Assembly (NCBI GenBank): GCA_938028465.1 | Contig: CALJAA010000120.1 | Coordinates: forward strand, 1-47,153 | Source: an uncultured Granulosicoccaceae bacterium | GTDB lineage: Bacteria; Pseudomonadota; Gammaproteobacteria; Granulosicoccales; Granulosicoccaceae | Direction of reading: 5' to 3' | Length of the DNA stretch: 47,153 nucleotides | In this document: piece after piece, positions 8,273 to 36,038 of the stretch | How the letters are laid out: each line of letters begins with the position of its first letter | How positions within the stretch are numbered: the first letter of the stretch is position 1 | Position numbers and translations under genes: made by a program | The notes under the pieces: generated by a model | What the model saw: only the letters and a program-made list of their open reading frames with translations | Told to the model about the DNA's origin: nothing | Databases searched by the model: none

Positions 8273-8274
8273 TC

Positions 8275-12069: not shown

Positions 12070-12312
12070 TTAAGCACTCGATGCCATTTTTTCAACGTAT
12101 TCGGTGATGGCAGTCAGCGTGGCAAAATTTTCAGGCGTTAAGTCGTCCGTATCTACTATGAAGCCGTATTTCTCTTCGCTCCACAAAACGAGTTCCATCA
12201 TCGCAACACTATCTAGGATTTCGTCTTCTAATAAATTCTGATCCGCTTCAAAATCAGGCACATTAGGCTTGAGTGTTTTTATGAATTCGTAAATTTCAGC
12301 TTGCTTGCTCAT
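12070..12312 (-). CDS. Stand-alone acyl carrier protein
   Basis: An 80-residue acidic helical protein with one phosphopantetheine attachment site: Ser35 in EILDSVAMMELV, the D-S-[VL] pattern of carrier proteins. The rest (LTPENFATLTAITEYVEKM) matches helix III and the closing helix of ACPs, and it resembles DltC or amino-acyl carriers more than FabD-type AcpP. It sits between the enolase-family gene and the AMP ligase, which probably loads it. The Sfp-type transferase at 35265 is the only phosphopantetheinyl transferase in the window and could activate it. A housekeeping fatty-acid ACP is unlikely because no fab gene is near. Confidence 0.88.
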   Translation of the reverse strand: MSKQAEIYEFIKTLKPNVPDFEADQNLLEDEILDSVAMMELVLWSEEKYGFIVDTDDLTPENFATLTAITEYVEKMASSA

Positions 12313-16964: not shown

Positions 16965-17180
16965 GCCCACTGGAAATGAACACTGAATCCGTAGGCAAAT
17001 TGGTAGGGCCAGCGCAGTGCAACCATCGGATTAGGCAAACGTCGAATCCTCGCCAAATGTCTGAAAAACAGCAGTTAGCGTGAATACTGCTAAGTCGATC
17101 CTAGATTTCAAACCAGAATAACCTAGAGATTCCTATTTCGTGTAGGCTTCGTTGGGGTTATTTGAACAAGGGTATTTGGG

Positions 17181-17759: not shown

Positions 17760-17772
17760 ACGGTACAAAGAT

Positions 17773-19659
17773 GTGAATAGTCGCAAATCTGTTTACTTTC
17801 TGATGATTGCAGCATTAGTGTGCGCAATCAGTTTGCTTCTGGTTATGGCAAACATCAATCAAGCCCGGCTTCAACTTCAGAACTCCAAGGAAGGCGCATT
17901 CAATTATGTCCTTCAAGCCGAACGATCTTTTGATCGATTGCATCTGGCAATTGATGAGTATATCGAAACGGACTCAACCGATCAAAAACAACTGTTGTGG
18001 CCTAAGCTGCAGTTGCGATTCGATATTATCTGGAGCGTATTTAAGGTCTTCGATATACATTTACCTGAAAGTCAGCGCCTTGCATCGGCCGATCAATTCA
18101 CAGAAAAAACCAAATTATTTTTAACGAGCAACGATCCTCTATTCATCAGCAACACCATCCCTGAGGATCATCAACTTCATACTGTTACCGGAGCGCTGAC
18201 TCAACTCTCTACAGAGCTGCACGCTGTAGGCAACGAAGTGTTCGCACAATTTAACGTTTTTAGAGATAGCATTTCAGACCGCATGGAGAACCTATATCGA
18301 TACTTCTGGATCTCCGCGCTTTTATTATTGACTACTGGCATAGCACTGGTGGCCCAGCTGTTCAGGCTGATAAATCATTCAATGCAGCTCTTTGATGAAG
18401 CCCAACGCTCCAAGGCACGATTATCGAACGTCATTGAAGAGCTACGAAGCGGTAAGCGCGAACAGAAAGCGAAGGACAGCTTTATTGCAGCAGCGAGCCA
18501 CGATTTAAGGCAACCATTACACGCACTGGGGCTTTTTGTCAGCGCTTTGGAAAAAAATGTAAAGAAACCAGAAGGCCCGATTATATTAGATAAAATTAAG
18601 CAATCAACTGATGCTTTAAGTAGTTTGTTTAACAGTTTGTTGGATATTTCACGCCTTGATGCAGGTGTGGTTGAAGTTATGCCTCGACACTTTTGTTGTG
18701 CGGAGCTTTTTAAAAGCCTAGAAGAAGAATTTAGCGAAATTGCGGCGCACCGAAAGCTTGAATTTAGTATCGAACGCTCTGTAGAAGTTGCCTATACCGA
18801 TAACGTACTACTAGGCCGAATACTTCGAAACTTGATTGACAATGCGGTAGTGCATACCAAAGAAGGAAAAGTAGAAATTTCTTGCAACCGAAAGAACGAC
18901 AAAGTTCATATAACCGTTTCTGACACGGGGCCTGGCATCCCATCTGATGAGCACGAGGATATATTCTCAGAATACTACCAACTCGGCAATCCGGAACGTG
19001 ACCGTTCCAAAGGCCTTGGCTTGGGCCTGTCGATCGTAAGGCGGCTATCTGATTTGTTAGGCATAAAGGTGACAATCGATTCTGCTGTGGGCGCCGGAAC
19101 GCGTATCGAATTACAAGTACCAGCAGGTTCCGCCGAGAAAGTCGCATTACTAAAAAATCAAGATTTCGATATTTCGGTTAGAGACTTTCAGGGCGCTACG
19201 CTTCTGGTCATCGATGATGAAAAGGCGGTTCGAGAAGGCATGGAATGTATGTTGAGCAACGTGAATTGCTCGGTGATAACAGCAGAGTCTGGTAAGGCTG
19301 CGCACAACATCGTCGTGGAACGAAATATAAAACCAGCAGTGATCATCGCCGACTATCGTTTGCGTGAAGGTGAAACCGGCGATACTGCCGTGGAGATGAT
19401 TAGAGATGAATTTAACGATGACATACCAGCGCTGATAATTACCGGTGATACATCACCCGAGCGAGTACGCGACGCAACCGCCAGTGGGATGAAATTGCTG
19501 CACAAACCGGTGCTACCAGATGAGTTAGTAAAGGTGATAGAAGAATTTTTACAAAAAACACACGATAGCGCCGTATGGGCACCGTATACAGAAAATAGTG
19601 ATGCTGACCCTGAACACCTTGGTAGCAAAATCGAAAAAAAAACTACTGAAATTAGCTAA
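17773..19659 (+). CDS. Hybrid sensor histidine kinase with C-terminal receiver domain
   Basis: A 628-residue membrane protein beginning at a GTG. TM1 lies at about residues 8-27, a periplasmic helical region at 28-172, and TM2 at about 175-197. A short coiled linker leads to the kinase core: His243 in AASHDLRQPLHALGLF (HisKA), N box LRNLIDNAVVHT, G1 SDTGPGIP and G2 GLGLGLSIV. The receiver domain (about 472-595) has VIDDE, phospho-acceptor Asp527 in IADYRL and Lys578 in LLHKPV. The DLRQPLHALGLF variant is common in hybrid kinases that have a soluble partner regulator; none is adjacent. It is probably coupled to the upstream sulfite-oxidase-fold sensor. Its stop overlaps the stop of the convergent hydrolase at the end of the NRPS cluster. 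Confidence 0.94.
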   Translation: MNSRKSVYFLMIAALVCAISLLLVMANINQARLQLQNSKEGAFNYVLQAERSFDRLHLAIDEYIETDSTDQKQLLWPKLQLRFDIIWSVFKVFDIHLPESQRLASADQFTEKTKLFLTSNDPLFISNTIPEDHQLHTVTGALTQLSTELHAVGNEVFAQFNVFRDSISDRMENLYRYFWISALLLLTTGIALVAQLFRLINHSMQLFDEAQRSKARLSNVIEELRSGKREQKAKDSFIAAASHDLRQPLHALGLFVSALEKNVKKPEGPIILDKIKQSTDALSSLFNSLLDISRLDAGVVEVMPRHFCCAELFKSLEEEFSEIAAHRKLEFSIERSVEVAYTDNVLLGRILRNLIDNAVVHTKEGKVEISCNRKNDKVHITVSDTGPGIPSDEHEDIFSEYYQLGNPERDRSKGLGLGLSIVRRLSDLLGIKVTIDSAVGAGTRIELQVPAGSAEKVALLKNQDFDISVRDFQGATLLVIDDEKAVREGMECMLSNVNCSVITAESGKAAHNIVVERNIKPAVIIADYRLREGETGDTAVEMIRDEFNDDIPALIITGDTSPERVRDATASGMKLLHKPVLPDELVKVIEEFLQKTHDSAVWAPYTENSDADPEHLGSKIEKKTTEIS

Positions 19660-20498
19660 AAAGACCGCTTAGCCCAATCTACAATATCCTGCTGCATTTC
19701 ATCGCGATGGTGCTGCAACATATTTAAGTGATCAGTTACCGGAAAATAATTTGTGCTAACCTTTCCTTCAAAATCGAAATCACTAAAAATGTCCCAAAAC
19801 TGTTGGCGATAATTGTAATAGCCAGTAACACCACCGGTATATATAAAGTGCATCAACACGCCACGTTGTGCAAGTGTTTGTATGTTCTCACCGGATTGCT
19901 CGCGAGACCATTCTGTGTAAGCCGTGTTGTTAGCTAATACCGAACCTTGTACGGCCTGCCCTTCTTCAGGCGGTTGTGATTTAGCTTTGAATCGATTTAA
20001 CAAACGCTTCCAACGCGATGGCTGTATGGAACGGCGCAGCAAGTGTTGAAAAACATAATTGATATAAAAGCGTTTAGTGCGATAACCCACGCCATCAATA
20101 TTAAGCAGCCCAACAACGCGTTCATCAGCAAGGGCTTTTATCGCGGTATCGTTAGCTCCAGAACACAAGCCAACGAGGATAAACGTTTGAAGGCCATAAT
20201 TTTTTTGCATGAACTCCATCGCTTTGTCGAGATCCTGCGACACAATTTCTCTATCATCTAGTGTGGCAGAACCGGTCATGCTGTCACCTAAGCCTGACAA
20301 ATCCATCCGAAGCGATGCAAAGTTTACCTTCGCAAGCCGCCTTGCAAGATCAGTGTTAAGACGGTTCGGCCCTACTCTATGCAAAAAACCGGCATTAAGT
20401 AAAATTACACATGGCTTACCCGAAATCAAAGACCCTTCGGGGATATTGGTCAAACCGATAAGATTAGTGGCTGGGTCAATGTTATGTGCAGATTCCAT
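19656..20498 (-). CDS. Stand-alone alpha/beta hydrolase with Cys nucleophile, last gene of the NRPS arm
   Basis: A 280-residue enzyme from the ATG at 20498; a TTG at 20501 adds one residue. AAGGGATAGG lies upstream, and the NRPS stop is only 4 bp away, so the two are coupled. Fold motifs: VILLNAGFLHRVGPNRL (oxyanion region), LRMDLSGLGDS, the elbow LVGLCSGAND with Cys112, and a late VTDHLNML with His257. The NAG..HR.GP.R and GLC..A pattern recalls 'hydrolase 1' of exosortase-A-associated loci, which occurs beside a second hydrolase. Here the second hydrolase is fused to the NRPS immediately upstream. Likely job: release, transfer or editing of the carrier-bound peptide (inference). The stop codon overlaps that of the sensor kinase. 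Confidence 0.87.
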   Translation of the reverse strand: MESAHNIDPATNLIGLTNIPEGSLISGKPCVILLNAGFLHRVGPNRLNTDLARRLAKVNFASLRMDLSGLGDSMTGSATLDDREIVSQDLDKAMEFMQKNYGLQTFILVGLCSGANDTAIKALADERVVGLLNIDGVGYRTKRFYINYVFQHLLRRSIQPSRWKRLLNRFKAKSQPPEEGQAVQGSVLANNTAYTEWSREQSGENIQTLAQRGVLMHFIYTGGVTGYYNYRQQFWDIFSDFDFEGKVSTNYFPVTDHLNMLQHHRDEMQQDIVDWAKRSF

Positions 20499-20502
20499 CA
20501 AC

Positions 20503-23500
20503 CTATCCCTTGATTAACGATATGATTTTGCTGATGGCCGGCTGTAAAAAAGCCAGATACCCTGCCTGATCAAAATCAGACCATAGATCAAAATCTTCAA
20601 TGTGACTATGCACGACACCATCTTCACTGATCAATACACCGACATCCGTTTCAGACAACGTCGCTGCATCTCCGCTTGTGACTAAATGCAATTGCACAGC
20701 GTTGCTTTTTTTGTAGATGCTGACGAGCGGCACGATATCAACCGCTGTAAGGCCATCAATAAGTTGCTCTGAATAGGTATAACCAAAGCGCTCCCATTTA
20801 TTGGATTTTCGTTGAACGTAACGGTAACGATCTAAGTTACGCATAGCGTATTGATGAAGCTCATCAAGATAATTTAGGTAATCAGCACCTGAGCAGACTG
20901 GGTCAAGCATAACGATCTTGTCAATATTTTCTAGGCCAGCATCCAACATCAGCGGCGCACCCAAACGTGCACCAACTAGTGTGATCGTGTCACATCCGCT
21001 TTGCGCTCTAAGAAATTGTGCAGCCGTTTTGACGTTACTACGCCAAATATCAAGCGACACCTCAGCAGGCGTACCTTCAGAATCGCCGAACCCCGTCCAA
21101 TCAAAACGCAACACATGATACCCAAGTCTGGCTAGCTCTACTGCTAACATCTGGAAACCACGATGCAGTCGCATGTACTCATGCCCTATCGACGGACACA
21201 GCAATATTGCTTGTTGTTTGATATCACTACCCGGGATATGCATCATGCCAAACAGGCGTTGATCCTCATCACCAAAAAACGAAGGCTCCATTAGATCAAC
21301 ATCAATTTGAGCCGCGTCATCGGCGAAAGCATCTGCAGGATTAAGGTAAGCCGCTATTTGAGCCAAGTTGGCTGACAACAACATGCGCGGCAATACCATC
21401 TTGTCGAATTCACGAAACAGCCTGGCGTTGAAACGCATGCCAGACAATGAACTACCGCCACTGGAGACAAAATTATCGTGGATAGATGGGTCACTACCGC
21501 CGAGCGTTTTTTGCCATACAGCGGCAACTGTTTTTTCAGTTTGCGTACGCGGTGCTACTCGTTCGCTTGCAACTGATATGGTTGGATCGGGTAAATCTTT
21601 ACGGCTAATTTTTCCGTTGGGTAAACGCGGGAAATCATCGAGCTCTTGTAACACCTGAGGCACCATGTAGTCTGGCATACGTTCTTTCAGGTACTCTAGT
21701 AGCTCGACATGATTAACCGTGTGACCCTGCTTAACACGATAATAAGCATGCAGTTTGTTATCACCCGGCGCATTAACCAACACAGCTCTTATGCCATCAA
21801 AGCGTGCCAAGGTTTGTTCGATCTCAACCGGCTCGATACGAAAACCACGTATCTTTAATTGCGCATCTTTTCGGCCGCGGTGTTCGATCACCCCATTGGG
21901 CAAGTACCGCCCCAAGTCACCGGTTAAATAAAGCTTGCCATCACCAAATGGATTATCGATAAATTTTTCTTGATTTAGGCCCTCTTCCTCGCCGAAGTAA
22001 CCCAAGGACAAGCCCTTACCTGTTACACCTAACTCACCAATAGCACCTGATGGCATCAGTTGCTGGCTTGAACTCAATACGTAAACTTGGCAACCCGTTA
22101 TGGGACGCCCTACCGGCATATTGGCTGCTAAATTTTCAGCGTTAACTTCAATGCCGGTCACGTCAGCACTGACTTCAGTAGACCCATAAAGATTAAGCAA
22201 CGTGCAGCCAGGCATAGCACCAAGAAACTGCTCAGCAATGTTTCGCGTTAGCGGCTCACCACTTACAACACACAATTTAATCGCTGTTAAGCGTGTATCG
22301 ATACTCTCAACACTATCCAAGAGCACAGATAAGTACGATGGCAATAAGAGCACGCGAGTAACGCCAAATTGCTCAAGAGAATCAACAAACTGATGGGCGT
22401 TTTTTACAATCTCGTCTGACAAAATAACCGTTGGGATACCTTGTAGTAAACCACCAAACAACTCCCATATTGAATCGACAAAGCTTAATGATGTTTTTTG
22501 GCAAACCACATCAGATGGTTCAAAGGGATAGGTATCCCACATCCAGCTAAACCGATTAAGCGTGGCGCTGTGCGAGCCGACCACTCCTTTTGCTACGCCT
22601 GTTGAGCCCGAGGTGAACATCACATAAGCACCCTTTTGAGGCGCGAGGATTCTATCAGATGCTATTGGTGATGCAGCTATAGCCTCCCACTGTGTATCAA
22701 GCTCGACTACTTGTAGATCACTACTGTCATATGCGCTGGGTGTTTGGCTATTGGTAAGAATGATCTTAGCACCAGAGCTAGCTAGCATATTGTTTTGGCG
22801 GTTAGCTGGGTAAGTTGGATCAATTGGAACAAATAGCGCTCCCGCCATCATTGTGCCCAGCATGGCAGTATAGACATCGATGGAGCGCTGGAGAATAACA
22901 GCAACCGTATCGCCTGGTTTCACTTTATGGTGAATTAAATAATCACGCACATGTGAAGCCGAGCTTGTTAGCTCTTGATAACTTAGCTGGTTTTTACTAT
23001 CGCTAACCGCAGGCGCGTCAGGAGTTTTATCAGCTTGCTGCAAAAATACCGAATGCAGAGTGTCATTTAATTTTGCTGCTGATGCGTCAACAGCTGTTTG
23101 ATTAAACTCAGTTAACAATAAGGTTCGATCTTCATCGTCAAGCATGACGATGTCTGCCAAGGTGGCTTGCTCTGGATGTTTAATATTGGCAAGGCTCTGT
23201 AGCACTGTAAGGTAATGTTTCAACAACTGCCGCGCACTTTGCTCGGGCAGTACCGAGCTACTATGCATGATCAAGAAATTCAGCTCTTGGCCTTCGAATA
23301 TATGGATCAACAGTGGTAAAGGGCTATTTTCGTGTACAGATACGTTGTTAAATTGAATAGGCGGATCGCCCAAAGCGCCTAAGTTAGGGAAAGTTTGAAA
23401 TACCAACAACGCTTCAAATAAATTAGCACCGGCTGGCAACTCGCTAGCAATATGGATATCAGCCATCGATATTTTATCGTTTTGTGTAAGTTCGGCCTTT

Positions 23501-24471
23501 TCCTTTTGCGCATCCGATAACCATTTATTGACAGTTGTGCTGTTTGCACACTGCAAACGTAACGGCAAACCACTGGCAAACATACCGAAAGTGCGATCAT
23601 GATTTCGTATGTTATTACTGCGCCCGTTCAATGTAACACCCACGACAACATCATCAGTGTTGTTATAGCGTGCAAGGGTTAGCCCCCACGCTGCCTCAAC
23701 CAACACACTAAATGTGGTTCTTGCCGTACGGGCAAGTTCATTGAGCTTTTTAGCCGTTAGTGCATCGAGCGACAAACGGAAATGATTATCTGTGTGGTAT
23801 GTATTGTCTTCTGGTACGACCCTAGTTAACTGCAGACTAGTGGATTGTTCAAAACCACTTAATTTATCAGCCCAATAAGCGCCCGAGCGTTCATTTTTAT
23901 TGGACTTTTGTTCGGCGGCATAATCACTGTACTTACCCGGTGGCGGGAGATCTATTGGCTTACCTTCAAGCAACGACCCATAGATAGTTTGTAATTCGTT
24001 AAAGAATAATACGCTAGACCACCCATCAAATATCAAATGATGGATGTCGAATATTAACTCGCAGCTAGCATCACCTAGCTGCGCTAGCGTTACGCGCAAT
24101 AGCGGTGCTTGATCAAGTGCAAACTTTTCTTGCATGCTTTGAGAGGCAAGCTCATCAAGCTTTGCCTGTTGAGCTTCGCTTGTTAGCTCACGCAAATCGT
24201 GCTCGCGCAAGGAGAATTCCAATTGGCCTCTAACAATCACTGCAGGCTCGTCGAGGCCTTCGTGCAGAAACAGACAACGCAAGCTCTCATGCCTGTTAAC
24301 AAGTTGTTGCAGGGATTGGCGAAACCGATCAAGATCAAGCGGACCGGTGATGCTATCGCGCGACTGCGTCCGATACAGAGCATCTGACTCAGATAGAAGC
24401 ATCTGGTACAGCAGCCCCTTCTGCGCTTCAGTGAGCGGATAGACGGCCGCGACGTTATCTAATTTTTCCAT
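20503..24471 (-). CDS. NRPS module C-A(beta-Ala)-T with fused C-terminal alpha/beta-hydrolase domain
   Basis: A 1322-residue synthetase. Condensation domain (about 8-440) with intact His144-His145-LIF-Asp149-Gly. Adenylation domain (about 470-950) with FTSGSTGVAKG, NLYGSTE, YLTGDLGR and the final NGKISRKDL lysine. Carrier domain with Ser1008 in SSGGSSLSGM. Aligned to GrsA, the specificity code is V-D-W-L-V-S-L-A-D-K, two conservative changes from the beta-alanine code VDWVISLADK (from memory). Val at position 235 in place of Asp fits a beta-amino acid. Residues about 1050-1322 are an alpha/beta-hydrolase domain (RFDWTGFGDSEG; LVGARLGAPL), not a normal thioesterase: Arg1169 sits at the nucleophile position. 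It probably acts third, after the two-module enzyme, and is coupled to the Cys hydrolase downstream. The ATG has only a weak upstream ribosome binding site. Confidence 0.93.
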   Translation of the reverse strand: MEKLDNVAAVYPLTEAQKGLLYQMLLSESDALYRTQSRDSITGPLDLDRFRQSLQQLVNRHESLRCLFLHEGLDEPAVIVRGQLEFSLREHDLRELTSEAQQAKLDELASQSMQEKFALDQAPLLRVTLAQLGDASCELIFDIHHLIFDGWSSVLFFNELQTIYGSLLEGKPIDLPPPGKYSDYAAEQKSNKNERSGAYWADKLSGFEQSTSLQLTRVVPEDNTYHTDNHFRLSLDALTAKKLNELARTARTTFSVLVEAAWGLTLARYNNTDDVVVGVTLNGRSNNIRNHDRTFGMFASGLPLRLQCANSTTVNKWLSDAQKEKAELTQNDKISMADIHIASELPAGANLFEALLVFQTFPNLGALGDPPIQFNNVSVHENSPLPLLIHIFEGQELNFLIMHSSSVLPEQSARQLLKHYLTVLQSLANIKHPEQATLADIVMLDDEDRTLLLTEFNQTAVDASAAKLNDTLHSVFLQQADKTPDAPAVSDSKNQLSYQELTSSASHVRDYLIHHKVKPGDTVAVILQRSIDVYTAMLGTMMAGALFVPIDPTYPANRQNNMLASSGAKIILTNSQTPSAYDSSDLQVVELDTQWEAIAASPIASDRILAPQKGAYVMFTSGSTGVAKGVVGSHSATLNRFSWMWDTYPFEPSDVVCQKTSLSFVDSIWELFGGLLQGIPTVILSDEIVKNAHQFVDSLEQFGVTRVLLLPSYLSVLLDSVESIDTRLTAIKLCVVSGEPLTRNIAEQFLGAMPGCTLLNLYGSTEVSADVTGIEVNAENLAANMPVGRPITGCQVYVLSSSQQLMPSGAIGELGVTGKGLSLGYFGEEEGLNQEKFIDNPFGDGKLYLTGDLGRYLPNGVIEHRGRKDAQLKIRGFRIEPVEIEQTLARFDGIRAVLVNAPGDNKLHAYYRVKQGHTVNHVELLEYLKERMPDYMVPQVLQELDDFPRLPNGKISRKDLPDPTISVASERVAPRTQTEKTVAAVWQKTLGGSDPSIHDNFVSSGGSSLSGMRFNARLFREFDKMVLPRMLLSANLAQIAAYLNPADAFADDAAQIDVDLMEPSFFGDEDQRLFGMMHIPGSDIKQQAILLCPSIGHEYMRLHRGFQMLAVELARLGYHVLRFDWTGFGDSEGTPAEVSLDIWRSNVKTAAQFLRAQSGCDTITLVGARLGAPLMLDAGLENIDKIVMLDPVCSGADYLNYLDELHQYAMRNLDRYRYVQRKSNKWERFGYTYSEQLIDGLTAVDIVPLVSIYKKSNAVQLHLVTSGDAATLSETDVGVLISEDGVVHSHIEDFDLWSDFDQAGYLAFLQPAISKIISLIKG

Positions 24472-24552
24472 GTATTTTCAACGTCGAGCAAGGTTAATGG
24501 GCGTCGTTGTACCCACAAAACTGCCATAGGACAATCTAGCTATAGTCCATGC

Positions 24553-24558
24553 ATTATA
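24553..24558 (-). promoter_or_regulatory. Candidate -10 box for the third-module NRPS gene
   Basis: On the minus strand this is TATAAT, an exact sigma-70 -10 match, about 82 bp upstream of the NRPS start at 24471. I find no good TTGACA-like -35 at 16-18 bp spacing, so the promoter would be weak or activator-dependent. The 142-bp gap between this gene and the lipoprotein upstream suggests an independent start of transcription. Confidence 0.35.
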
Positions 24559-24613
24559 GAAGCAAAATGGCATTTGCCGTTAACTACTGGTATCTGTGCA
24601 GCTTTAGTGAGTA

Positions 24614-25513
24614 CTAAGGGCGACTAAGCTGCTCAAGCAAAAAAGTCCGGATAATCTCCTGTATTTCCGGTTGCTCCCATAGCTCATGCCGATTTCGTAA
24701 CGGCTCATAATCAACTACATATGACAAGCTTCCATTGTTTGTAGTCATGAACTCCCCGCAATCTCCTTGATGATAACGGGACGTGTACCAAGGGTCTCGA
24801 TCTGAAACTAAAGTTAGCACCGCCTCCGACTCGGGTGCATTAATACCTTGGAATTCGGGCCAACCCGCTTGGCACACCCAAGCCTCTGCTACGCGGGCTT
24901 TGAGTAAACCCGCCGGGGTTTCAAGATTCGTATAGGTGGTAGCCACAGCAGCACCTTCACTAAACCCGACAAGCATGATGTTGTTTTTGTCAGCCCATGT
25001 GAACTCAGCGGCCTTTTTAATGGAGTAACCCGCATCAAATTGTCGAATAGCTAACGTTGGACGAAAAAGCCCTGATTCATTAGTACTGGGGTTACACGAT
25101 TGCGGATAAAACTCGCGTGCAAAGCTATTTGGTGCGATAACAACAAAACCGTTTTGGGCCAACCAGTTGATCCTGAAACTGCTGCCAGACCAAAAACCAC
25201 TACAACCGTGCAGGTAGATCACCACGGGATAGGTTTGATCTGGCACTACCTCACCTGATTCAAGTGCGCTTACAGTGGTTCGAACTACGCCACCATCCCT
25301 GGTTGGTATGCTAACCAACGACGCTTGCCACGTTAGCTCCATTTCGCTGGGAGATTGATAAAGTAGCTGTTCAGGCGTAAGGTTTGGACCATTAGGTGTG
25401 CCAGCTTTACCACCACCAGTACTACAGGCTACGCTAAACAACGAGAGCAACAGCACCGCTAAACAGTGACGCAGATACCTTTGTTTACGTATATTAAAAA
25501 TTCTCGTTGGCAC
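24614..25513 (-). CDS. Lipoprotein alpha/beta hydrolase (dienelactone hydrolase/esterase-like)
   Basis: A 299-residue protein from a GTG with GAGG 7-8 bp upstream. The N-terminus is a lipoprotein signal: basic residues, then LLLSLFSVAC with lipidated Cys30 followed by STGGGK. Asp is not at +2, so outer-membrane sorting is expected. Hydrolase motifs: VVIYLHGCSGFWSG, VIAPNSFAREF, elbow LVGFSEGAAV with Ser185, LVSDRDPWY as the acid region, and RNRHELWEQ with a candidate His. This is the secreted dienelactone-hydrolase-like type. It is divergent from the flippase (about 50 bp between starts) and upstream of the third-module NRPS. In the cluster it could trim or transesterify the exported product at the cell surface, but this is inference. 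Confidence 0.86.
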   Translation of the reverse strand: MPTRIFNIRKQRYLRHCLAVLLLSLFSVACSTGGGKAGTPNGPNLTPEQLLYQSPSEMELTWQASLVSIPTRDGGVVRTTVSALESGEVVPDQTYPVVIYLHGCSGFWSGSSFRINWLAQNGFVVIAPNSFAREFYPQSCNPSTNESGLFRPTLAIRQFDAGYSIKKAAEFTWADKNNIMLVGFSEGAAVATTYTNLETPAGLLKARVAEAWVCQAGWPEFQGINAPESEAVLTLVSDRDPWYTSRYHQGDCGEFMTTNNGSLSYVVDYEPLRNRHELWEQPEIQEIIRTFLLEQLSRP

Positions 25514-25568
25514 TGATTATCCTCGGTAAACTATTCGGATTTTGTGATTTCTACTAATTTAATTGCTC

Positions 25569-27038: not shown

Positions 27039-30000
27039 CTTCCTCCGCCTTTAAGCATTGCCGCAATTCTCGCCATATCGTCTTGGGAATGTTGGGGCTC
27101 TTGTTCCACCCCTTGCGCAGCTGATTCCGCTGCTGCTTGTTCAGCTGTCTGAACTTGAGCACCAACAGCAACATCCGATGCTTGGGCACACAAGCGGATC
27201 GTACCAAGATCAAATATTTCAACAATCGAAAGCGTTATACCCCGATCAGTGGACAAGGACATGATTTGCATAGCCGAAATGGAGTTACCACCCAGGTCAA
27301 AGAAATTAGAATTAACACTGAGCTGGTCTCGCCCTAGCGCCGTCTCCCATATTTCGCTCAAGGCTTTTTCGGTGTCGGTCGCCGGTTGGTTTTCAGGTAA
27401 ATCAAATACATCAATATTGGCAGCAGCCGCCAGATTAGCAGAGCTTGCATGTGGGTCTGGCAATGCCTTGCGATCGATCTTACCGTTCGGCATACGCGGC
27501 ATAGAGTCGATAAACATAAAAGTTGACGGCACCATGTATATCGGTAATTTCTCCCGCAGCAACTCACGCAAAATTAGCTCGTTTGGCGTGACATCCGCAT
27601 AGCTGGTATCTGGCACCATATAGGCAGCTAAAAACTCATTGTCTTGCTGCTTGATTAGTTTTACTACAGCGTGATCTATACCATCAGCCTCACTTAAAAC
27701 CGATTCTATTTCGCCTAACTCGATTCTAAATCCTCGTAACTTAACTTGGCTATCGATACGACCAAGGCATTCCAATTTGCCGTCCTCTGTCCAACGGGCA
27801 AGATCTCCAGTGCGATACACGCGCTCACCCGGATGCATGGGATGCTCAATAAATTTCTCGGCGGTAAGCTCTTCACGATTCACATAACCTAATGTTACGC
27901 CGTCACCTGCGATACAAAGCTCACCCGGAATGGATAGTGGGCATAAATTATTGCCACCATCAAGTATTAAAATTTGTGTATTGGCTATGGGTTTACCAAT
28001 ACTGATCAGGCCCTCAGCATCCGTTATCTGGTCGCAGGTGGACCAAACAGTTGTTTCAGTTGGCCCATACATATTCCATAAGCTGCTGACTTTGGGTATC
28101 AACGCAGCGGCCAAGTCCCGCGGCAAAGCCTCACCCCCCACCAATGCTTTAAACTCAGGCACATCGCCAGCAATGCCGTTCCAATCTGCTGCCAATAGCA
28201 AACGCCACGTGGTAGGTGTGGCTTGCATGACCGTTATTCCCTGCTCTTTAATACGCGCAGCTAACTTGCGGCCGTCAAAGGTCAGATCACGTAACGCGAA
28301 GTCAACACTTGCGCCTGTGATTAGCGGTAAAAACATTTCCAGCACGGCGATATCAAACGAGACGGTTGTTACTGCAAGTAATTTATCGTGCTCGTGCAGG
28401 CCCGGTGTCTCCTGCATTGAATAAAGAAAATTCACCATATTCCATCGGGTAATCTTCACGCCCTTAGGCTTACCAGTTGTGCCAGAGGTATAGATGACAT
28501 AGGCCAAGTCTTCACCACTAGGCGACACCGGTTTTAGCCTATGAGCTTGTTCACTCTTCGCGTGCCTTGAAATGCCATCCCACTCGACATCAAGCGTTAA
28601 TACCGGCGCTGCGTGATCACCTCCCGCAGCCTCAACATCGCTGTTGGTAATTAACAAGGCGACATCAGCGTCAGACAAAATACTATCGATGCGATCTTGT
28701 GGGTAATCTGGGTCAAGTGGTATATAAGCCGCGCCCGCTCGCTGAACCGCAAGTAGTGAGACGAGAAGTTCTGCATCTCGAATCAAGCAAACTGCTACAA
28801 GATCATTCGTACCAATACCACGAGATTGCATATGTGCCGCGAGCACATCGGCATGCTCTGTTAGCTGCTGATAGGTCAGTGATACATCGCCAAAACTTGC
28901 TGCTAGTTTATCTGGATGCAGCAGAGCTTGCTGCCAAACTAAATCAGCAACGTGATGCTCTTGTGGGTAGTCGCGCTGCGTTTGATTGAATGATTCAGTC
29001 ATTTGCTGGATCTCTTCAAAGCTCATCATGTCAATATCAGACACCGTGGCGGATGTATCTAACAAGGTGATTGAGTTAATAATATTAGTAAAGTGCGAAA
29101 TAATTTGCTCAACGGCATTGTCGTCAAACATCTCTTCGATATACATCACTTGTATTTCGAGTAGCTCTTCAGGAAATACCTCAACAGTCATTGGCGTTGG
29201 GCTATTTTCATGTACTCGTCTATCATGCACCTCTAAGGTAAAATCATCAGAAAGCGTTAGCTGGGGCGCATTTTGAAACACCAACAACGAATCAAACATC
29301 GGTGCATTGGCTGGCATTTCGCTCGCCTTTTGGATGTCAGTCAAACTTGAATTTTCGTGCTGTATCAACGCGAGTTGATCTTGCTGAATGGCTTGAACCC
29401 AATCGTATAACGTTGTCGAGCTTTCAAATTTAATGCGCATTGGCAATGAATTAACAAACATGCCTACGGTCGTTTCGTAGTTATCGATGCCAGATGAGCG
29501 GCCAGTAACCGCAAAACCGAACATAACATCATTGGTATCATTGTATTTTGATAAAAGTAAAGCCCACGCGGCTTGCACAATACTATTTGGAGTTACTCTG
29601 CATTTTCTAGAAAAATCATATAAGCGCTCAGTAGACTCTTGATCCACCGCCACCCTGATATTGCCTCTGGCGTATAAGTCTGCTGCTTTGTCAGTTTTCT
29701 TTGATATCGGTGTCGGTAATTTGAAGCCTTGTAATTTGTTGCTCCAAAACGTCTGTATCGATTCACTATTTTGTGAAGCTAGATACGCTACATGATCTTT
29801 AAACTTACCAGCATCCAGCATGTGTGGAGTGTTACCTCTAACAAATGCCTCGTAAGCCAGCAAGGCTTCGTTGGCTATCACCGCTAGCGACCAACCGTCC
29901 ATCAAGATATGGTGCCACTCAAAAATTAAATGAGACAGCTGCTTATTGATCAAGCCCAAATGCACTCGCATCATTGGCTGTTGATCTATCTGAACGGATT

Positions 30001-33000
30001 GCTGAATTGCCTTTGCAGCTATTGCATCACAGCCGGCAACAGCATCAGTTACGCTTTTGTCAGTGAAGTCATGAACATCAATTGATATAGATGCTGTTTT
30101 TGAAACAACCTGAATGGGTTCTTGCAGGCCTTCGTGTAAGACAACACTTCGAAGCATGTCATGACGCTCTATGACAAGGTTCCACGCTTTATTAAATAAC
30201 CCGGCATCCATTTCACCGTGAAGATCACAGCGGATTTGTGCTAGGTAGAGAGGCGCTTGCGTACCTTGCAACAATAAGTGAAAGAGTATGCCCTTTTGCG
30301 CACTAGTCAGAGGAAACGCATCAACAATGTTGTCGGCTCCACCTAGTGACGGCAAACGGCGCGCTAATTCTTCACGTGATAACGATTCGTCATCGCTCGC
30401 AAGGCTACCAGCATCAGAGCTTGGCCCAGCTGAATCTGTTTGCTCAAGCAGATGCAAAAGCGGATTATTATCGATTTCGATAGCGATCTCAGCGACATTC
30501 CCTATCTCGAGAATCTCTTTCAGTGACAAGGCAATACCGAGCTTTCTGGCACCAACCATAATACGCATTGCCGCAATCGAATTGCCGCCAAGGTTAAAAA
30601 AATCAGCGTGAATATTGACATCCTTAAGGCCTAGTGTCGTTTTCCAAAGTGCGACTAGTTTTTCTTCCGTCGGTGTTCTGGGAATGGTTGAGCCTGAATC
30701 ATCAATCTCAATTTTTGGTATCAACAAGCCAAGTGCATTACGATTAATCTTGCCATTTGATAGCAACGGTACCTGCATGATGCGCACCGGCTGAGGCACC
30801 ATGTAGTCTGGCAAGCGTTGCCGTAAATTGTTTAACAAGCCTTGTTCGTCTACCTCCTCACCGGCTGCAGCAACATAAAAACCATAAAGCTGATCATTTT
30901 CGCCAACAAACAGGACAGCTGAACTGACGTTGTCGTACTCGAGCATCGCATTTTCAATTTCGGCTGACTCGATACGATGACCACGTATCTTCAGCTGTGC
31001 ATCAAGCCTACCGTAGTGCTCAATTAGACCTTTATCATTAAAGCGTCCAAGGTCACCGGTTTTAAACAACAAGCCATCCGCAAACGGGTTGGCAACAAAT
31101 TTTTCGCTGTTTAAGTCATTCCGCTCAAAATAACCGCCCGACAAGCCAGCGCCAGCAATACAAATTTCACCTACTGAGCCACTTGGCAATAGTTTCATTT
31201 GATCATCTACAATGTAGATGTTGACGCCATCGATTGGGCGCCCAATAGGCATTTTGATTGCTAGCTTATCGTGCGTGACTACATCGGCTGTGACATCAGC
31301 CGTGACTTCCGTAGACCCATAAAGATTAAGTAGTTGGCAATGCCCTAATTTGTGCAAAAAGCTACGCGCAACGTGTAGCGGCAAAGGCTCACCACTGACG
31401 ATGCAGTATTCAAGAGTTCTGAGGCGGTTCGCAACATCAACCTCACTATCTAATACAACCGATAAAAAAGATGGAACCACCACTAAGCGGCTAATGCGCT
31501 CAGATTCAAGCACATTTACAAATGCAAAAATATCCAACACTGTTTCATCTGAAATGACGACAACCGGCACACCTTGCAACAGTGGACCAAAGAGCTCCCA
31601 TATCGAATCAACAAAACTCAACGCGGTTTTTTGGCAACACACTTCGTCAGTCTGAAATGGATAATGGCGCCACATCCATCCAAAGCGGTTGAGGGTCGCG
31701 GCATGAGTACCAATCACACCTTTTGGTAACCCTGTGCTGCCTGATGTATACATGATGTACAAGGCATCACTGGCGGCATCAGGAGAGCATGCAGAAAATC
31801 CGGTGGCGCTGCTGGTTGGCAAGCTATCAGTAAACACTAGCTGTGCATCACCAACGTTATATTGCGGATCAGTGGCTTGGTTACTAAGCACCAATTTAGC
31901 GCGTGAGTCTTCAACCATATAAGACAAACGATCAGCTGGATAAGTTGGGTCTAATGGCACCATGACGGCGCCTGCCTTCATCACACCCAACATCGCTGGG
32001 TACATCGCTAAGGATCGTTTAAAACAAATACCGATAGCATCACCTGGCTTAATGCCCTGCGCTACCAAAAAAGCCGCGATGGCGTTCGATTGATCATCAA
32101 GTTGTGCATAGCTAAGTTGCGCAGTTGAATCCTTTATTGCAATCGCCTGCGGCGTACGCTTGGCTTGCAGCGCAAAATGAGCATGTAAGGTATCAGGTTG
32201 GATCGCATTGGGCTTTGGCCCCGTGCCATTTTCTAGTAAGGCCAATCGAGCTTGATCATCAACGATCTCGAATGCACTGACGGCTTGATCAGGATCCTCC
32301 AACAATGCGTTTAACACCGTGCAGAAAGTATCAGAGTAGGTTTGTTGATATTGCTTGTTAAAGACGCTGGCGGCAAGATCTACAGAAAGCGTAAATTCAC
32401 CGTCACCTGAAAAATCGTTAACGTTTAAATCGAGCTGCGAGTTGGAATCTGAATATCCAGCGTAGTGCCAAACCACATCCACAGGCATATCAGCAAAGTG
32501 TGTAATTTGGGATGTCAGTACATTAACGCTTGAAGCATAAGCTGATTGACTCTCTTTAGTTTGAACGCCTGGTTCGATATGCGAAAACGACTTCATGGCC
32601 TCGCGCATAATTTGCCGAGCAATATCCCTAAAGCTGTCAGAATACGTCAGCGATAAATCTAGAAACCCAATCGCCGTAAACATACCTAAAGTTTCACGAT
32701 CGCTCGGTGTTTGTCTGCCGTGCGCAGGAAACCCCAGGTGGAGTTCGGTTTTACGGTGCAGCCTATAGCCCGTGACCATCATGGTGGTAGCCATTAGTGA
32801 AAACAGCGACATATCACGGCCAATGGATTTAAAACCAGGCTGCTTTAAGGTTTCGTCAATCGCCTGCCTTTGCGCGTGAGTAAGCACTATCGGGGTGCGC
32901 ACCTTTGCATGTGAATGATCAAACGGTTTTCCAAAATAGACTGGCTCTTCTACTTCGCGTGCAGATTTTTCACGCCAATAGTTGCTTATTCTGTTTCGAC

Positions 33001-33580
33001 GATCACTCCCATCTAGCTCACGTTGCGCTTCTAAAAATTCGTAATAGGAAGGAATCTGGCAATCGTTGGAACTATCAGCGGTCATGGATCGATCAGCTTG
33101 GCTATAGATACACGATAGTTTTTTCAACAGTAGTTCGATATTAAAACCATCGGTGCTGATGTGATGCTGACACCAGTAGAAAACATGCGTGTTATCGGGT
33201 AATGAAACTAACGCACCATCAAACATTTTCTTGCGCGGATCGATTGGCACAGCACAACGATTAGCAATCCATTGATCCAAATCGTCAGGGTTGGCCATAG
33301 TCACTAGCTCGCAATCAGCTTTGATCGTTGGCACACGTTGTTGCGAAGGATGATCTGTCTCTTCGTCTACGATCACGCTTTGCAAGTTATCTGATGCCTG
33401 CACTAGGGTTTCTAGCGCCGTCGTAAAGCGCTGTATATTTAGATCACCTTTTATTGTGTAAGTAACTAGTAGGTTATATAACGGAACATCTTGAGCTACC
33501 GATTGCGCTAACCAAACTAGATGCTGAGCACGGCTCAGAGGTTGAGATGTATTCATCTTGGTATTCACTTTGGTATTCAC
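27035..33580 (-). CDS. Two-module NRPS: C-A(beta-Ala)-T-C-A(Gly)-T
   Basis: A 2181-residue synthetase. Domains: C1 (about 12-430; His139-His140-IST-Asp144-Gly), A1 (about 465-960), T1 (Ser1001 in LGGNSIAA), C2 (about 1085-1520; His1223-His1224-ILM-Asp1228-Gly), A2 (about 1545-2040; YTSGTTGKPKG) and T2 (Ser2100 in LGGNSISA). The codes aligned to GrsA are VDWVISLADK for A1, identical to the beta-alanine code I remember, and DILQVGMVWK for A2, one step from the glycine code DILQLGLIWK. No epimerase, methyltransferase or thioesterase. The first domain is a C domain, so an acyl or aminoacyl donor is expected. The Ala/Gln/Glu-rich tail ending MARIAAMLKGGGS may dock to the third module. The GTG start overlaps the GH3 stop; GTG 33568 and ATG 33556 are alternatives. 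Confidence 0.95.
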   Translation of the reverse strand: MNTKVNTKMNTSQPLSRAQHLVWLAQSVAQDVPLYNLLVTYTIKGDLNIQRFTTALETLVQASDNLQSVIVDEETDHPSQQRVPTIKADCELVTMANPDDLDQWIANRCAVPIDPRKKMFDGALVSLPDNTHVFYWCQHHISTDGFNIELLLKKLSCIYSQADRSMTADSSNDCQIPSYYEFLEAQRELDGSDRRNRISNYWREKSAREVEEPVYFGKPFDHSHAKVRTPIVLTHAQRQAIDETLKQPGFKSIGRDMSLFSLMATTMMVTGYRLHRKTELHLGFPAHGRQTPSDRETLGMFTAIGFLDLSLTYSDSFRDIARQIMREAMKSFSHIEPGVQTKESQSAYASSVNVLTSQITHFADMPVDVVWHYAGYSDSNSQLDLNVNDFSGDGEFTLSVDLAASVFNKQYQQTYSDTFCTVLNALLEDPDQAVSAFEIVDDQARLALLENGTGPKPNAIQPDTLHAHFALQAKRTPQAIAIKDSTAQLSYAQLDDQSNAIAAFLVAQGIKPGDAIGICFKRSLAMYPAMLGVMKAGAVMVPLDPTYPADRLSYMVEDSRAKLVLSNQATDPQYNVGDAQLVFTDSLPTSSATGFSACSPDAASDALYIMYTSGSTGLPKGVIGTHAATLNRFGWMWRHYPFQTDEVCCQKTALSFVDSIWELFGPLLQGVPVVVISDETVLDIFAFVNVLESERISRLVVVPSFLSVVLDSEVDVANRLRTLEYCIVSGEPLPLHVARSFLHKLGHCQLLNLYGSTEVTADVTADVVTHDKLAIKMPIGRPIDGVNIYIVDDQMKLLPSGSVGEICIAGAGLSGGYFERNDLNSEKFVANPFADGLLFKTGDLGRFNDKGLIEHYGRLDAQLKIRGHRIESAEIENAMLEYDNVSSAVLFVGENDQLYGFYVAAAGEEVDEQGLLNNLRQRLPDYMVPQPVRIMQVPLLSNGKINRNALGLLIPKIEIDDSGSTIPRTPTEEKLVALWKTTLGLKDVNIHADFFNLGGNSIAAMRIMVGARKLGIALSLKEILEIGNVAEIAIEIDNNPLLHLLEQTDSAGPSSDAGSLASDDESLSREELARRLPSLGGADNIVDAFPLTSAQKGILFHLLLQGTQAPLYLAQIRCDLHGEMDAGLFNKAWNLVIERHDMLRSVVLHEGLQEPIQVVSKTASISIDVHDFTDKSVTDAVAGCDAIAAKAIQQSVQIDQQPMMRVHLGLINKQLSHLIFEWHHILMDGWSLAVIANEALLAYEAFVRGNTPHMLDAGKFKDHVAYLASQNSESIQTFWSNKLQGFKLPTPISKKTDKAADLYARGNIRVAVDQESTERLYDFSRKCRVTPNSIVQAAWALLLSKYNDTNDVMFGFAVTGRSSGIDNYETTVGMFVNSLPMRIKFESSTTLYDWVQAIQQDQLALIQHENSSLTDIQKASEMPANAPMFDSLLVFQNAPQLTLSDDFTLEVHDRRVHENSPTPMTVEVFPEELLEIQVMYIEEMFDDNAVEQIISHFTNIINSITLLDTSATVSDIDMMSFEEIQQMTESFNQTQRDYPQEHHVADLVWQQALLHPDKLAASFGDVSLTYQQLTEHADVLAAHMQSRGIGTNDLVAVCLIRDAELLVSLLAVQRAGAAYIPLDPDYPQDRIDSILSDADVALLITNSDVEAAGGDHAAPVLTLDVEWDGISRHAKSEQAHRLKPVSPSGEDLAYVIYTSGTTGKPKGVKITRWNMVNFLYSMQETPGLHEHDKLLAVTTVSFDIAVLEMFLPLITGASVDFALRDLTFDGRKLAARIKEQGITVMQATPTTWRLLLAADWNGIAGDVPEFKALVGGEALPRDLAAALIPKVSSLWNMYGPTETTVWSTCDQITDAEGLISIGKPIANTQILILDGGNNLCPLSIPGELCIAGDGVTLGYVNREELTAEKFIEHPMHPGERVYRTGDLARWTEDGKLECLGRIDSQVKLRGFRIELGEIESVLSEADGIDHAVVKLIKQQDNEFLAAYMVPDTSYADVTPNELILRELLREKLPIYMVPSTFMFIDSMPRMPNGKIDRKALPDPHASSANLAAAANIDVFDLPENQPATDTEKALSEIWETALGRDQLSVNSNFFDLGGNSISAMQIMSLSTDRGITLSIVEIFDLGTIRLCAQASDVAVGAQVQTAEQAAAESAAQGVEQEPQHSQDDMARIAAMLKGGGS

Positions 33581-35232
33581 TCAGCGTTGTTGTTGAGGAG
33601 ACGGGCAGATTTGATTTGATCATGACAATCCAATCGACTAGTCAGCACCTCAGATTTAACTTGTTCATCACTCACTCCCGCAGCCTTTGTGCTTACCCGG
33701 GCACTACGTAACGCGCCTTGATCAACTCTATAAGCTTCAATAGCGCCTAAACGGCCGGAGTGGCACTTGTCGGCGTATTCGCTATTAGCACGTTTTAAGG
33801 CGTCATCAAAAGTATGACACCAAGCTTGCGCTTGATCATCGCTACTGTTTAAAAAATCCAACATCAGGGAGTAATGAGGGTCTTCACCGCTGGAGGGATA
33901 ACATAAAAACTCCACCGGGCTAATTCCAGTTTGGCTAGCGGCTTCAGCAGCCGCTTGCAGCACATGTTTCTCGGTTAGTTTTTCGCCAGTGATGCTAGAT
34001 GTTTTACCAAAACGATATAAGAATTCGATGGTTGGCACGGTATCGATGAAGCCAGTTACTTGTACACAATCACCCATTCGATAACGATAGAGCCCCCCAC
34101 CAGTAGTTACCACTAACTCATAGCGCTTGCCCTTTTCTAGCTGCCAAGCGAAATGAGTTTTTGCATTAGGGGTTTCTACATCTGCCTCTTCAATAAATTC
34201 ATAAAAATGCGTGGTGTAGGCCAAGGCACCGCCACTAACGGAATCTTTAACCGGTATGGCCATCATGCATTCGCTTGATTGGGTAATGTAATCGCGTACG
34301 GGTAGATCATTCAGAAACGGCGCAAGTTGTTCAAAGTAAGGTTGCACAATATTGGAACGCCAACACACAACTAGTTTTAGCATCGGCCAGATGTCTTGCA
34401 AATGAGGTGTAACGTTTTTATCAAGTGCTGTTTCAAGCCTGTTAGCCGCACCTTCATCAACACGTAAGTAAGATTCAAGTGTTTGCTTACCCTCTACGTT
34501 CAAGCACGCCAACACATGATCATCATTTGTACCCCAATGGCCAGATTGCAAGCCTTTTATCAGTTGTGCAGAATGCGTTTGGATAACGCGGCAAAATTGC
34601 AATAAAGTGCTGGGATTTAGGCACATAATACAATGTAAGTCTGATTGCATCAGCAATCGTGCTATCGCGTAAAGCCGCGCGTCAAGATCATCAACTAGGC
34701 GTAATTCAGTAGGCAATGGCCATCGGGCAATGGTATTCATGCCACGCCCGCGACGCGACCAAAAACTGGATTCGGAACACACCTCAATACCTGATTGATC
34801 GGGTTCCGGTTGGCTGGCATCAATAAAATTACTAACTAAGGTGCCCGTCGCAACCTCTGGGTAATCGCGGTAGATCATGCCCCAAAAAATGGCAAACGCC
34901 CCAACCTTTTGCCTCATCAGTGCAGGTGTTACGGGTATTAATTTGGGTTTTGATGTTGATCCACTGGTTTTAAAAAACGCGAGCGTGCGATCAGCGGTAA
35001 GGCTATTAGCATTGGCCTCTATCCGATCCACCCATGGACGAAGGTCTTCATAGTTTGCTACTGGCACCTGATCAACATATTCTTCAGCCGATGCGACGTT
35101 GCTGGCGTTTAGTGAGCCTGCATAGTCGGACGACACAAAGCTTTGTAGAATTGTGGCCAGCACTTCACGCTGACACCGCTCTAATGCTGGTGTATTGTCA
35201 TTAAAAAAATCAAGATGAGGATTTGAAGTCAA
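33577..35232 (-). CDS. GH3-family acyl-acid amido synthetase
   Basis: A 551-residue member of the GH3 (auxin-responsive promoter) branch of adenylating enzymes. In plants these form acyl-AMP and join jasmonate, auxin or benzoates to amino acids. Motifs: FFKTSGSTSKPKLIPVT (ATP loop), a middle RDYITQSSECMMAIP, TTGGGLYRYRMGDCVQVTGF (the GH3-typical Y-R-Y-x-x-G-D) and SSITGEKLTEKHVL with the hinge region. The start is a TTG preceded by AGGGAAAG, with no nearby ATG. It overlaps the two-module NRPS by 4 bp, so they are coupled. It could make the acyl cap, form an acyl-amino acid that enters the first C domain, or amidate the finished chain; the order of genes favours an early step (inference). Confidence 0.9.
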   Translation of the reverse strand: MTSNPHLDFFNDNTPALERCQREVLATILQSFVSSDYAGSLNASNVASAEEYVDQVPVANYEDLRPWVDRIEANANSLTADRTLAFFKTSGSTSKPKLIPVTPALMRQKVGAFAIFWGMIYRDYPEVATGTLVSNFIDASQPEPDQSGIEVCSESSFWSRRGRGMNTIARWPLPTELRLVDDLDARLYAIARLLMQSDLHCIMCLNPSTLLQFCRVIQTHSAQLIKGLQSGHWGTNDDHVLACLNVEGKQTLESYLRVDEGAANRLETALDKNVTPHLQDIWPMLKLVVCWRSNIVQPYFEQLAPFLNDLPVRDYITQSSECMMAIPVKDSVSGGALAYTTHFYEFIEEADVETPNAKTHFAWQLEKGKRYELVVTTGGGLYRYRMGDCVQVTGFIDTVPTIEFLYRFGKTSSITGEKLTEKHVLQAAAEAASQTGISPVEFLCYPSSGEDPHYSLMLDFLNSSDDQAQAWCHTFDDALKRANSEYADKCHSGRLGAIEAYRVDQGALRSARVSTKAAGVSDEQVKSEVLTSRLDCHDQIKSARLLNNNAE

Positions 35233-35264
35233 CGCTTTCCCTGGGCTTAAACTAAACTAGTGTT

Positions 35265-36038
35265 ATGGATCAGCACCACACTCAGGCCCCAAACCAGTTG
35301 CCACCCGCCATGCCACCTACTAACAATCATGTGCATGTTTGGCTGATGTTCCATGACAAACTACCTGTACCACAACAGCTGAGTAAAAGCCTGATACTGA
35401 GCGAGCAAGAACTATCGCGCCAACAACGCTTTGTCACACCAGAGCTGCAGTACCGATTTCAATGCAGACGCGAGATGTTAAGGCGTAGCTTGACAGTATA
35501 CCGACCTGATATCCGTGAGTCAGAATGGATTTTTACCACCAACCAGTACGGCAAGCCACAAGTCCATCCCACACAGAGCCAGAACACCCCGCACTTCAAT
35601 TTATCGCACACGAATGGCCTGACCGTACTGGTTATCTCAGAATCTGAGGAGTGCGGCATTGATATAGAAAACACTTCTGTGCGCAGGCCCACAAGTTTTC
35701 TGGATATCGCTGATCGGTTTTTTACTGAGCCTGAGTCAGCACAAATTAAGCAAGGCTCAACCGATGTTCAAATCCAACGATTCTTCGATTTTTGGACGCT
35801 CAAGGAGGCTTACATGAAAGCCGTTGGCAAGGGATTGAGTTTGGGGCTGGATCGCTTTCAGTTTGATATTGATACCGACGAAGACATTGCCATTGATTTT
35901 CCGCCACCGGCAATTGATCAGCCACACAATTGGGTGTTCCACCAGGAAACTATAGATCAAACTATGCGCCTAGCCATAGCTATACGTTCCGGAGCCACTG
36001 ATCGGATCACCTGTGAGTATTTGCCATACCCAACTTAG
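35265..36038 (+). CDS. Sfp-type 4'-phosphopantetheinyl transferase
   Basis: A 257-residue enzyme that moves phosphopantetheine from CoA to the Ser of carrier proteins. Sfp-family signatures: NLSHTNGLTVLVIS, the Mg-binding GIDIENT with Asp133 and Glu135, and WTLKEAYMKAVGKGL (residues 177-191) with the Glu and Lys of the third motif. Length is typical (220-260). It is divergent from the GH3/NRPS operon with only 32 bp between the starts, so its promoter must lie inside the neighbouring coding sequence or be shared. It is expected to activate the three NRPS carrier domains and possibly the stand-alone ACP at 12070. The proline-rich first 25 residues are likely disordered. Confidence 0.94.
   Translation: MDQHHTQAPNQLPPAMPPTNNHVHVWLMFHDKLPVPQQLSKSLILSEQELSRQQRFVTPELQYRFQCRREMLRRSLTVYRPDIRESEWIFTTNQYGKPQVHPTQSQNTPHFNLSHTNGLTVLVISESEECGIDIENTSVRRPTSFLDIADRFFTEPESAQIKQGSTDVQIQRFFDFWTLKEAYMKAVGKGLSLGLDRFQFDIDTDEDIAIDFPPPAIDQPHNWVFHQETIDQTMRLAIAIRSGATDRITCEYLPYPT

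Follow-up and report, generated by a model that had tools for sequence, protein, structure and literature searches.

The 47,153-nucleotide window analysed here, which is the whole of contig CALJAA010000120.1 from an uncultured Granulosicoccaceae bacterium (assembly GCA_938028465.1, with 4.10 Mb distributed over 223 contigs and a completeness of 88.8%; hereinafter G000), encodes a nonribosomal peptide synthetase (NRPS) line that ends in a hydrolase domain lacking a Ser or Cys nucleophile. In this domain, denoted hydR (20506..21294, minus strand), which forms the C-terminal part of the synthetase NRPS_B and resembles hydrolase 2 of exosortase A systems, the nucleophile elbow reads GARLG, with Arg at the position of the nucleophile; the Cys nucleophile (GLCSG) is instead found in a separate protein encoded next to it, hydC (19656..20501, minus strand), a stand-alone alpha/beta hydrolase resembling hydrolase 1. 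In this respect, hydR is not a normal thioesterase. Both assignments come from alignments, family matches and structural models. The first-pass annotation of this DNA recognised neither the Arg in the NRPS-fused hydrolase nor the termination mechanism, and a literature search found nothing relevant to such an Arg/Cys hydrolase pair. We propose, tentatively and as something still short of probable, that hydR and hydC constitute a new machine for release or transfer of carrier-bound chains that serves NRPS lines in Granulosicoccaceae and other gammaproteobacteria and, in addition, exosortase-type polysaccharide clusters. Under this proposal, the nucleophile-less Arg hydrolase, often fused to a carrier, would present the chain to the matched Cys hydrolase, which would also explain hydrolases 1 and 2. 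Bacteria of the genus Granulosicoccus are regularly encountered in the communities that live on algal surfaces.

The arginine and cysteine partners

The pairing is conserved outside the window. Among 48 genomes of the order, 23 yielded a total of 25 hydR partners, all with Arg, while 21 of 23 stand-alone hydC proteins have Cys. In G021 and G013, the two hydrolases are joined in tandem on one chain (Arg, then Cys), and tandem fusions are also present at loci L098 and L113. A wider search of 369 genomes of the class with a hydC profile yielded matches at E-values up to 1e-20 in 49 genomes, and one locus was examined in each of 30 of these, the window and G031 included, using stop-to-stop pieces and only 1.5 kb of flank per locus. 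At every one of the 30 loci, an adjacent or fused Arg partner was present; adjacency to hydC was not a criterion in the search for this partner. The Cys was conserved at 30/30 loci, a count that is partly built in because the search profile was made from Cys proteins, and so was the Arg (30/30, with the elbow of L115 reading GLRLG), a count that is not wholly independent because the recognition profile derives from 15 Arg proteins. An adenylation (A) domain lies in the same reading frame as hydR at 6 of the 30 loci. The constancy of the Arg across the class and the order argues that hydR is not a mere product of decay. Modelled separately with AlphaFold2, hydC and hydR (pLDDT, the predicted local distance difference test, 81 and 84, respectively) both come out as alpha/beta hydrolases. 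The PDB matches listed for them are ordinary members of this fold, lipases and feruloyl esterases ranking high among them, and offer no additional clue.

The distant relatives of hydC and hydR in described systems are the exosortase A-associated hydrolases 1 and 2 (TIGR03100 and TIGR03101), proteins of hypothetical function. The hydC protein scores 63 bits against TIGR03100, its sole NCBIfam match at E-values up to 0.001, below the cut-off of 168.45, and hydR scores 84.8 bits against TIGR03101, the best among the six matches listed, below the cut-off of 202.75. The same pairing is seen in the exosortase cluster of G001 (L076:4723-12609), where hydrolase 1 (258.6 bits, above the cut-off) has Cys and hydrolase 2 (149.6 bits, under it) has Arg, next to a TIGR03099 decarboxylase (514.4 bits, above the cut-off) and on the same contig as an AMP ligase and an exosortase. 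Unlike exosortase A hydrolase 2, hydR shares a polypeptide with the carrier domain of an NRPS. Exosortase is encoded in 5 of the 48 order genomes, three of which (G000, G001 and G022) are among the 23 with the hydrolase pair. In G000, the exosortase (238 bits) is on contig C35, outside the window and without linkage to the cluster, and no exosortase match was obtained in G005, a 90% complete genome that carries the same cluster (on a contig taken to be CALGND010000114.1, from an uncultured Granulosicoccaceae bacterium). With so few pair-bearing genomes having an exosortase, dependence of the pair on exosortase is not supported in general, and the pair occurs beyond exosortase systems. A permissive TIGR03100 census, with matches in 30 of the 48 genomes, is not a count of pairs, as 29 of the 30 do not reach the cut-off and matches also turn up in 4 of 14 control genomes. 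The terms hydrolase, ligase and decarboxylase were searched for in the main text of Haft 2006 (PMC1569441) and do not occur there, and the phrase 'exosortase A system-associated' was found in no paper in our literature search. Like linear NRPSs of the EntF/surfactin type, the line in the window is built of condensation-adenylation-thiolation (C-A-T) modules whose C and T motifs are intact, but its terminal hydrolase has Arg in place of Ser or Cys, with the Cys supplied by another protein.

The assembly line and its putative starter genes

The line that hydR terminates is laid out in seven genes (19656-36038), all of which, as the first-pass annotation had listed them on about 16 kb, were recovered as open reading frames at the same coordinates. 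The families given there also held by Pfam match, except for the stand-alone hydrolase, which scores under the Pfam cut-off (Hydrolase_4, 23.2 against 27 bits). Apart from hydC, these genes encode NRPS_A (27035..33580, minus strand), with the predicted organization C-A(beta-Ala)-T-C-A(Gly)-T and a divergent first C domain, and NRPS_B (20503..24471, minus), with the predicted organization C-A(beta-Ala)-T-hydR, both described from Pfam domains, A codes and motifs; a GH3 acyl-acid amido synthetase (33577..35232, minus; Pfam match and motifs), the end of whose gene overlaps the start of the NRPS_A gene by 4 bases in the window; a lipoprotein with a DLH-type esterase domain (24614..25513, minus; Pfam match, lipobox recognised by eye); a flippase of the MOP superfamily (25563..27038, plus; family matches to Polysacc_synt, HfsF-like); and a 4'-phosphopantetheinyl transferase of the HetI/Sfp type (35265..36038, plus; family matches). 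The HHxxxDG motif is intact in 3/3 C domains and the phosphopantetheine Ser in 3/3 T domains (GGNS, GGNS and GGSS), both as previously noted. Orthologues of all seven genes are found in the same order in G005, at 70-78% identity (70% for the lipoprotein, 71% for the flippase and 75% for the transferase). Because this order and the A codes are conserved, the anatomy is not a chance reading. Both G005 and another genome, G016 (starter genes on a contig taken to be JAHDGK010000012.1, Granulosicoccus sp. MAG-44), are assigned to the same genus as the window.

The specificity codes of the A domains, anchored on the core motifs, are VDWVISLADK (A1) and DILQLGMVWK (A2) in NRPS_A and VDWLVSLADK (A3) in NRPS_B, with matching codes in the G005 orthologues. 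The automatic alignment gives L rather than I in A1 and I rather than V in A3 at position 299 and agrees at the other nine positions; we take this discrepancy to be a one-column alignment slip. The codes support all three monomers of the earlier prediction, beta-Ala, Gly and beta-Ala, firmly so for Gly. VDWVISLADK is taken here as a putative beta-Ala code; it was found in no paper of our literature search. In the VDW codes, the amino-binding Asp has moved from position 235 to 236 and Ser is present at 301, a combination that fits a beta-amino acid substrate. Ser301 has a parallel in VinN, yet there the Asp is retained at 235, according to PMC11253843. The Gly assignment of A2 is firm because DILQLGMVWK is nearly identical to DILQLGMIWK, which PMC12283262 gives as the code of Gly-activating domains.

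In a phylogenetic tree of C domains, C1 of NRPS_A and its G005 orthologue formed a long branch (3.18, with 100/100 support) apart from C2 and C3, which clustered with the C domain of a beta-Ala module of G032. Given this divergence and the AMP ligase and free acyl carrier protein (ACP) described below, the simplest reading is that the acyl group accepted by C1 would come from the free ACP. The expectation of an acylated or capped product is thereby supported and sharpened, and the claim that it consists only of non-chiral units is unproven: the codes account for achiral residues, but neither for the starter acid nor for a possible acceptor.

The putative starter genes lie to the left (5628-13508), in what looks like a pathway to make, activate and tether a starter acid. 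On the plus strand, these are an alpha/beta hydrolase with the Cys elbow GFCWG (5628..6473; Pfam and motif; 71% identical in G005 and 48% in G016), a FAD_binding_2/succinate-dehydrogenase-like flavoprotein (6542..8272; family matches) and a short-chain dehydrogenase/reductase (SDR) (8263..9051; family match; 77% in G005, 65% in G016). On the minus strand, there follow a UbiD-family decarboxylase (9143..10528; family matches; 81% in G005, 51% in G016), whose gene has 4 bases in common with the end of that of the ligase; an AMP-forming acid ligase, the proposed ACP loader (10525..12063; family matches; 88% in G005, 52% in G016 and 48% in L061, a contig of Gammaproteobacteria bacterium KW1-S05_53); a free ACP of 80 amino acids (12070..12312; NCBIfam), which had been overlooked in the first-pass annotation; and an enzyme of the MR_MLE enolase superfamily (12381..13508) in which the KxK and D-E-D motifs and the Lys are present (79% in G005, 41% in G016, 36% in L061). 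The same ACP gene is present in G005, G016 and L061, and in all of these, as in the window, it sits between the enolase and ligase genes. The genes of the extended cluster have likewise retained their order in G005.

The GH3 enzyme belongs with this starter block. In G016, where GH3 is 51% identical to that of the window, there is a contiguous run GH3-enolase-ACP-ligase-UbiD, with the SDR, the flavoprotein and the Cys hydrolase alongside, and 40 kb of this locus contained no NRPS-like match besides the ligase itself. L061 shows GH3-enolase-ACP-ligase in the same order, with the three larger proteins 36-48% identical to those of the window. Strong GH3 matches (E < 1e-179) among the order genomes were found in G000, G005 and G016, with weak ones (25-28% identity) in G058, G020 and G060, and the flavoprotein (E-values up to 1e-60) had matches in exactly the same G000, G005 and G016. 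The linkage in G016 and L061 and this co-occurrence assign GH3 to the starter block rather than to the peptide line. The left edge of the previously drawn cluster (19656..36038) moves by about 14 kb, to near 5628. The GH3 protein scores 155.1 bits against Pfam PF03321 (gathering cut-off 23.6) and has the three nucleotide-binding motifs, as defined in PMC12493201, in recognisable form; the family and these motifs are shared with plant GH3 (JAR1) and with the lyso-ornithine lipid synthetase OlsH, described in the same source as a bacterial GH3 that makes N-acyl ornithine. However, the window protein scores 71.1 bits against the OlsH family NF052613, below the cut-off of 620 bits, and differs from both OlsH and JAR1 in being linked to UbiD, MR_MLE, ACP and ligase genes. 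A search of plasmids with GH3 returned 8 records, each with less than 30% identity.

The identity of the starter acid was approached through two candidates, both of which were rejected. A menaquinone-like pathway was considered for the thiamine pyrophosphate (TPP) enzyme, enoyl-CoA hydratase (ECH), MenC-like enolase and MenE-like ligase of G016. It was ruled out because the families that the first two of these match above the cut-offs are PRK08199 and PRK06144, not MenD and MenB, the window enolase and ligase match menC and menE under the cut-offs, and no TPP or ECH protein is present among the scanned window proteins. The best PDB match of UbiD, at 173.9 bits, is 6h6v, presumably a furandicarboxylate decarboxylase, which is too thin a basis for naming a furan or pyrrole starter acid. 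Equally tentative is a role of the MR_MLE enzyme in handling N-acyl amino acids, for which there are dipeptide epimerases as well as N-acylamino acid racemases among its PDB matches. In four other loci, L063, L068, L069 and L071, from an Omnitrophota metagenome-assembled genome and three planctomycetes of the Rhodopirellula group, GH3 adjoins an MR_MLE enzyme (24-31% identical to the window enolase) and an alpha/beta hydrolase, the latter with Ser in the three planctomycetes and Cys in Omnitrophota.

Related clusters and neighbouring genes

Five sister clusters of Granulosicoccaceae, L029-L033, resemble the window in that a free-standing starter adenylase lies beside a C-A(Gly)-T-hydR protein and hydC, but differ in having a single Gly module and a proline-type starter. 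The code of their adenylase is DLFY[LIM]ALVCK, which we take to be a proline code. L031, the one that was scanned, additionally encodes a free carrier as well as an acyl-CoA dehydrogenase that matches RedW (a prolyl-carrier dehydrogenase) and PigA, under the cut-offs; in L032 and L033, an open reading frame of 91 amino acids lies beside the adenylase, as in L031. These genes suggest that the starter is pyrrole-2-carboxylate made from proline and that the predicted product is pyrrole-2-carboxyl-glycine. At L036:7140-13558, an A-T-hydR protein (A code DIEHITAVTK) and hydC are found near the diaminobutyrate transaminase EctB (604 bits, above the cut-off) and an HfsF-like flippase. Two loci of G032, L023 and L024, carry Gly and then beta-Ala codes (DILQLGMVWK and VDWVLSLGDK) on a line ending in hydR and hydC, with genes for a 645-amino-acid AMP-binding protein, an acyltransferase and a major facilitator superfamily transporter in the vicinity.

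The segment between the starter and peptide blocks of the window (13726-19659) encodes an ADP-ribosylglycohydrolase, a 570-amino-acid protein without a Pfam match, a 192-amino-acid protein and a hybrid histidine kinase. To the right of the cluster (36335-42844) are a MauG-like cytochrome protein, a 189-amino-acid protein, an animal-type haem peroxidase and an EF-hand protein; the last of these and the next genes (a regulator, a kinase and a cytochrome P450) are kept in G005, and the first three were not seen within 18 kb at the G005 locus. Elsewhere in the genome, contig C104 of G000 contains a further NRPS-like frame that comprises A-domain pieces and a weakly matching C-domain end (22.6 bits, under the cut-off).

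A proposed route and its alternatives

Our best explanation of the locus as a whole, for which the balance of probability seems to us about even, is a single biosynthetic unit of about 30 kb (5628-36038), with a starter carried by the ACP, a beta-Ala-Gly-beta-Ala backbone and release by hydR and hydC. The flavoprotein, SDR, UbiD and the MR_MLE enzyme would, in an order that we infer, make or trim the starter acid, which the AMP ligase would activate and load onto the free ACP. The divergent C1 of NRPS_A would then take over the starter and join it to beta-Ala, after which Gly and a second beta-Ala would be added, leaving the finished chain on the last T domain, beside hydR. Having lost its nucleophile, hydR probably acts as a docking or activating partner, so that hydC would bind it, take the chain onto its Cys and either hydrolyse it or hand it on to an acceptor. 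From the genetic linkage of GH3, this enzyme would be expected to form an amide on the starter-acid side, and it may cap or modify the starter. The flippase may serve for export, either of the product or of a glycan carrying it. The sequences themselves show the domains, the codes, the ACP, the Arg/Cys pairing, the conservation and the linkage, whereas the hand-over from ACP to C1, the complex of hydR with hydC, export by the flippase and the fate of the product are inferred. On this scheme, the most likely product would be an N-acyl-beta-Ala-Gly-beta-Ala chain that hydR and hydC release or transfer. No described pathway combining the features of the cluster, and no counterpart to an acylated beta-Ala-Gly-beta-Ala product, was found in our literature search.

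Several observations weigh against this scheme. Two stand-alone hydC proteins of the order have no Cys (Gly in G024, Ser in G012). The best NCBIfam matches of the ACP, to carriers of the AsbD/AmcB type at 38-39 bits, are under the curated cut-offs, and the code of the ligase, IHMSLTSPRK (alignment-based), resembles no code known to us. The long C1 branch is of the kind for which the tree-building tool warns of possible false joining of long branches. The starter and NRPS blocks are divided by the 13726-19659 segment, three genes of which are absent from the G005 locus, the 570-amino-acid protein being the only one with a counterpart there (55%). Finally, G000, G005 and G004 are the only genomes with a flippase at most 10 kb away from a pair, among contigs many of which are short, so that the role of the flippase is weakly supported.

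The peptide might alternatively not be free at all, if hydR and hydC transferred it to a sugar or a lipid-linked glycan that the flippase then moved, for decoration of the cell surface. We consider this unlikely, while acknowledging that the distant relationship of the pair to exosortase A-associated hydrolases 1 and 2, the Polysacc_synt/HfsF-type flippase inside the cluster and another flippase near the A-T-hydR and hydC pair at L036 of G004 all point in this direction, and that a Cys nucleophile is, as a matter of general chemistry, suited to acyl transfer. However, no glycosyltransferase is present among the scanned window proteins, and neither the flippase, given the distribution just described, nor exosortase, confined to three of the 23 pair-bearing order genomes, regularly accompanies the pair.

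A further alternative is that the left block and GH3 form a separate small-acid pathway beside an independent NRPS, in which case GH3 would couple this acid with an amino acid in free form. The G016 locus, where the block and GH3 occur with no adjoining NRPS, and the three intervening genes that are missing in G005 speak for such a separation. Nevertheless, we regard it as quite improbable, given that in both the window and G005 the NRPS separates GH3 from the block, that the end of GH3 overlaps NRPS_A by 4 bases in the window, and that the ligase and ACP required by a starter C domain are provided by the block, no other free carrier having been seen in the cluster. Least of all do we favour an ordinary NRPS that makes a free acyl tripeptide, with hydC as a type II editing thioesterase and hydR as a decayed, functionless one, for although stand-alone thioesterases often accompany NRPSs and hydR indeed has no nucleophile, decay would not give an Arg conserved at every class locus and in every order row, and several genomes carry hydR and hydC as a tandem fusion.

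Should the two hydrolases function together in the manner proposed here, they would represent a two-protein ending for a nonribosomal peptide, and a widespread pair of hydrolases, so far named for nothing but their exosortase association, would gain a testable role.

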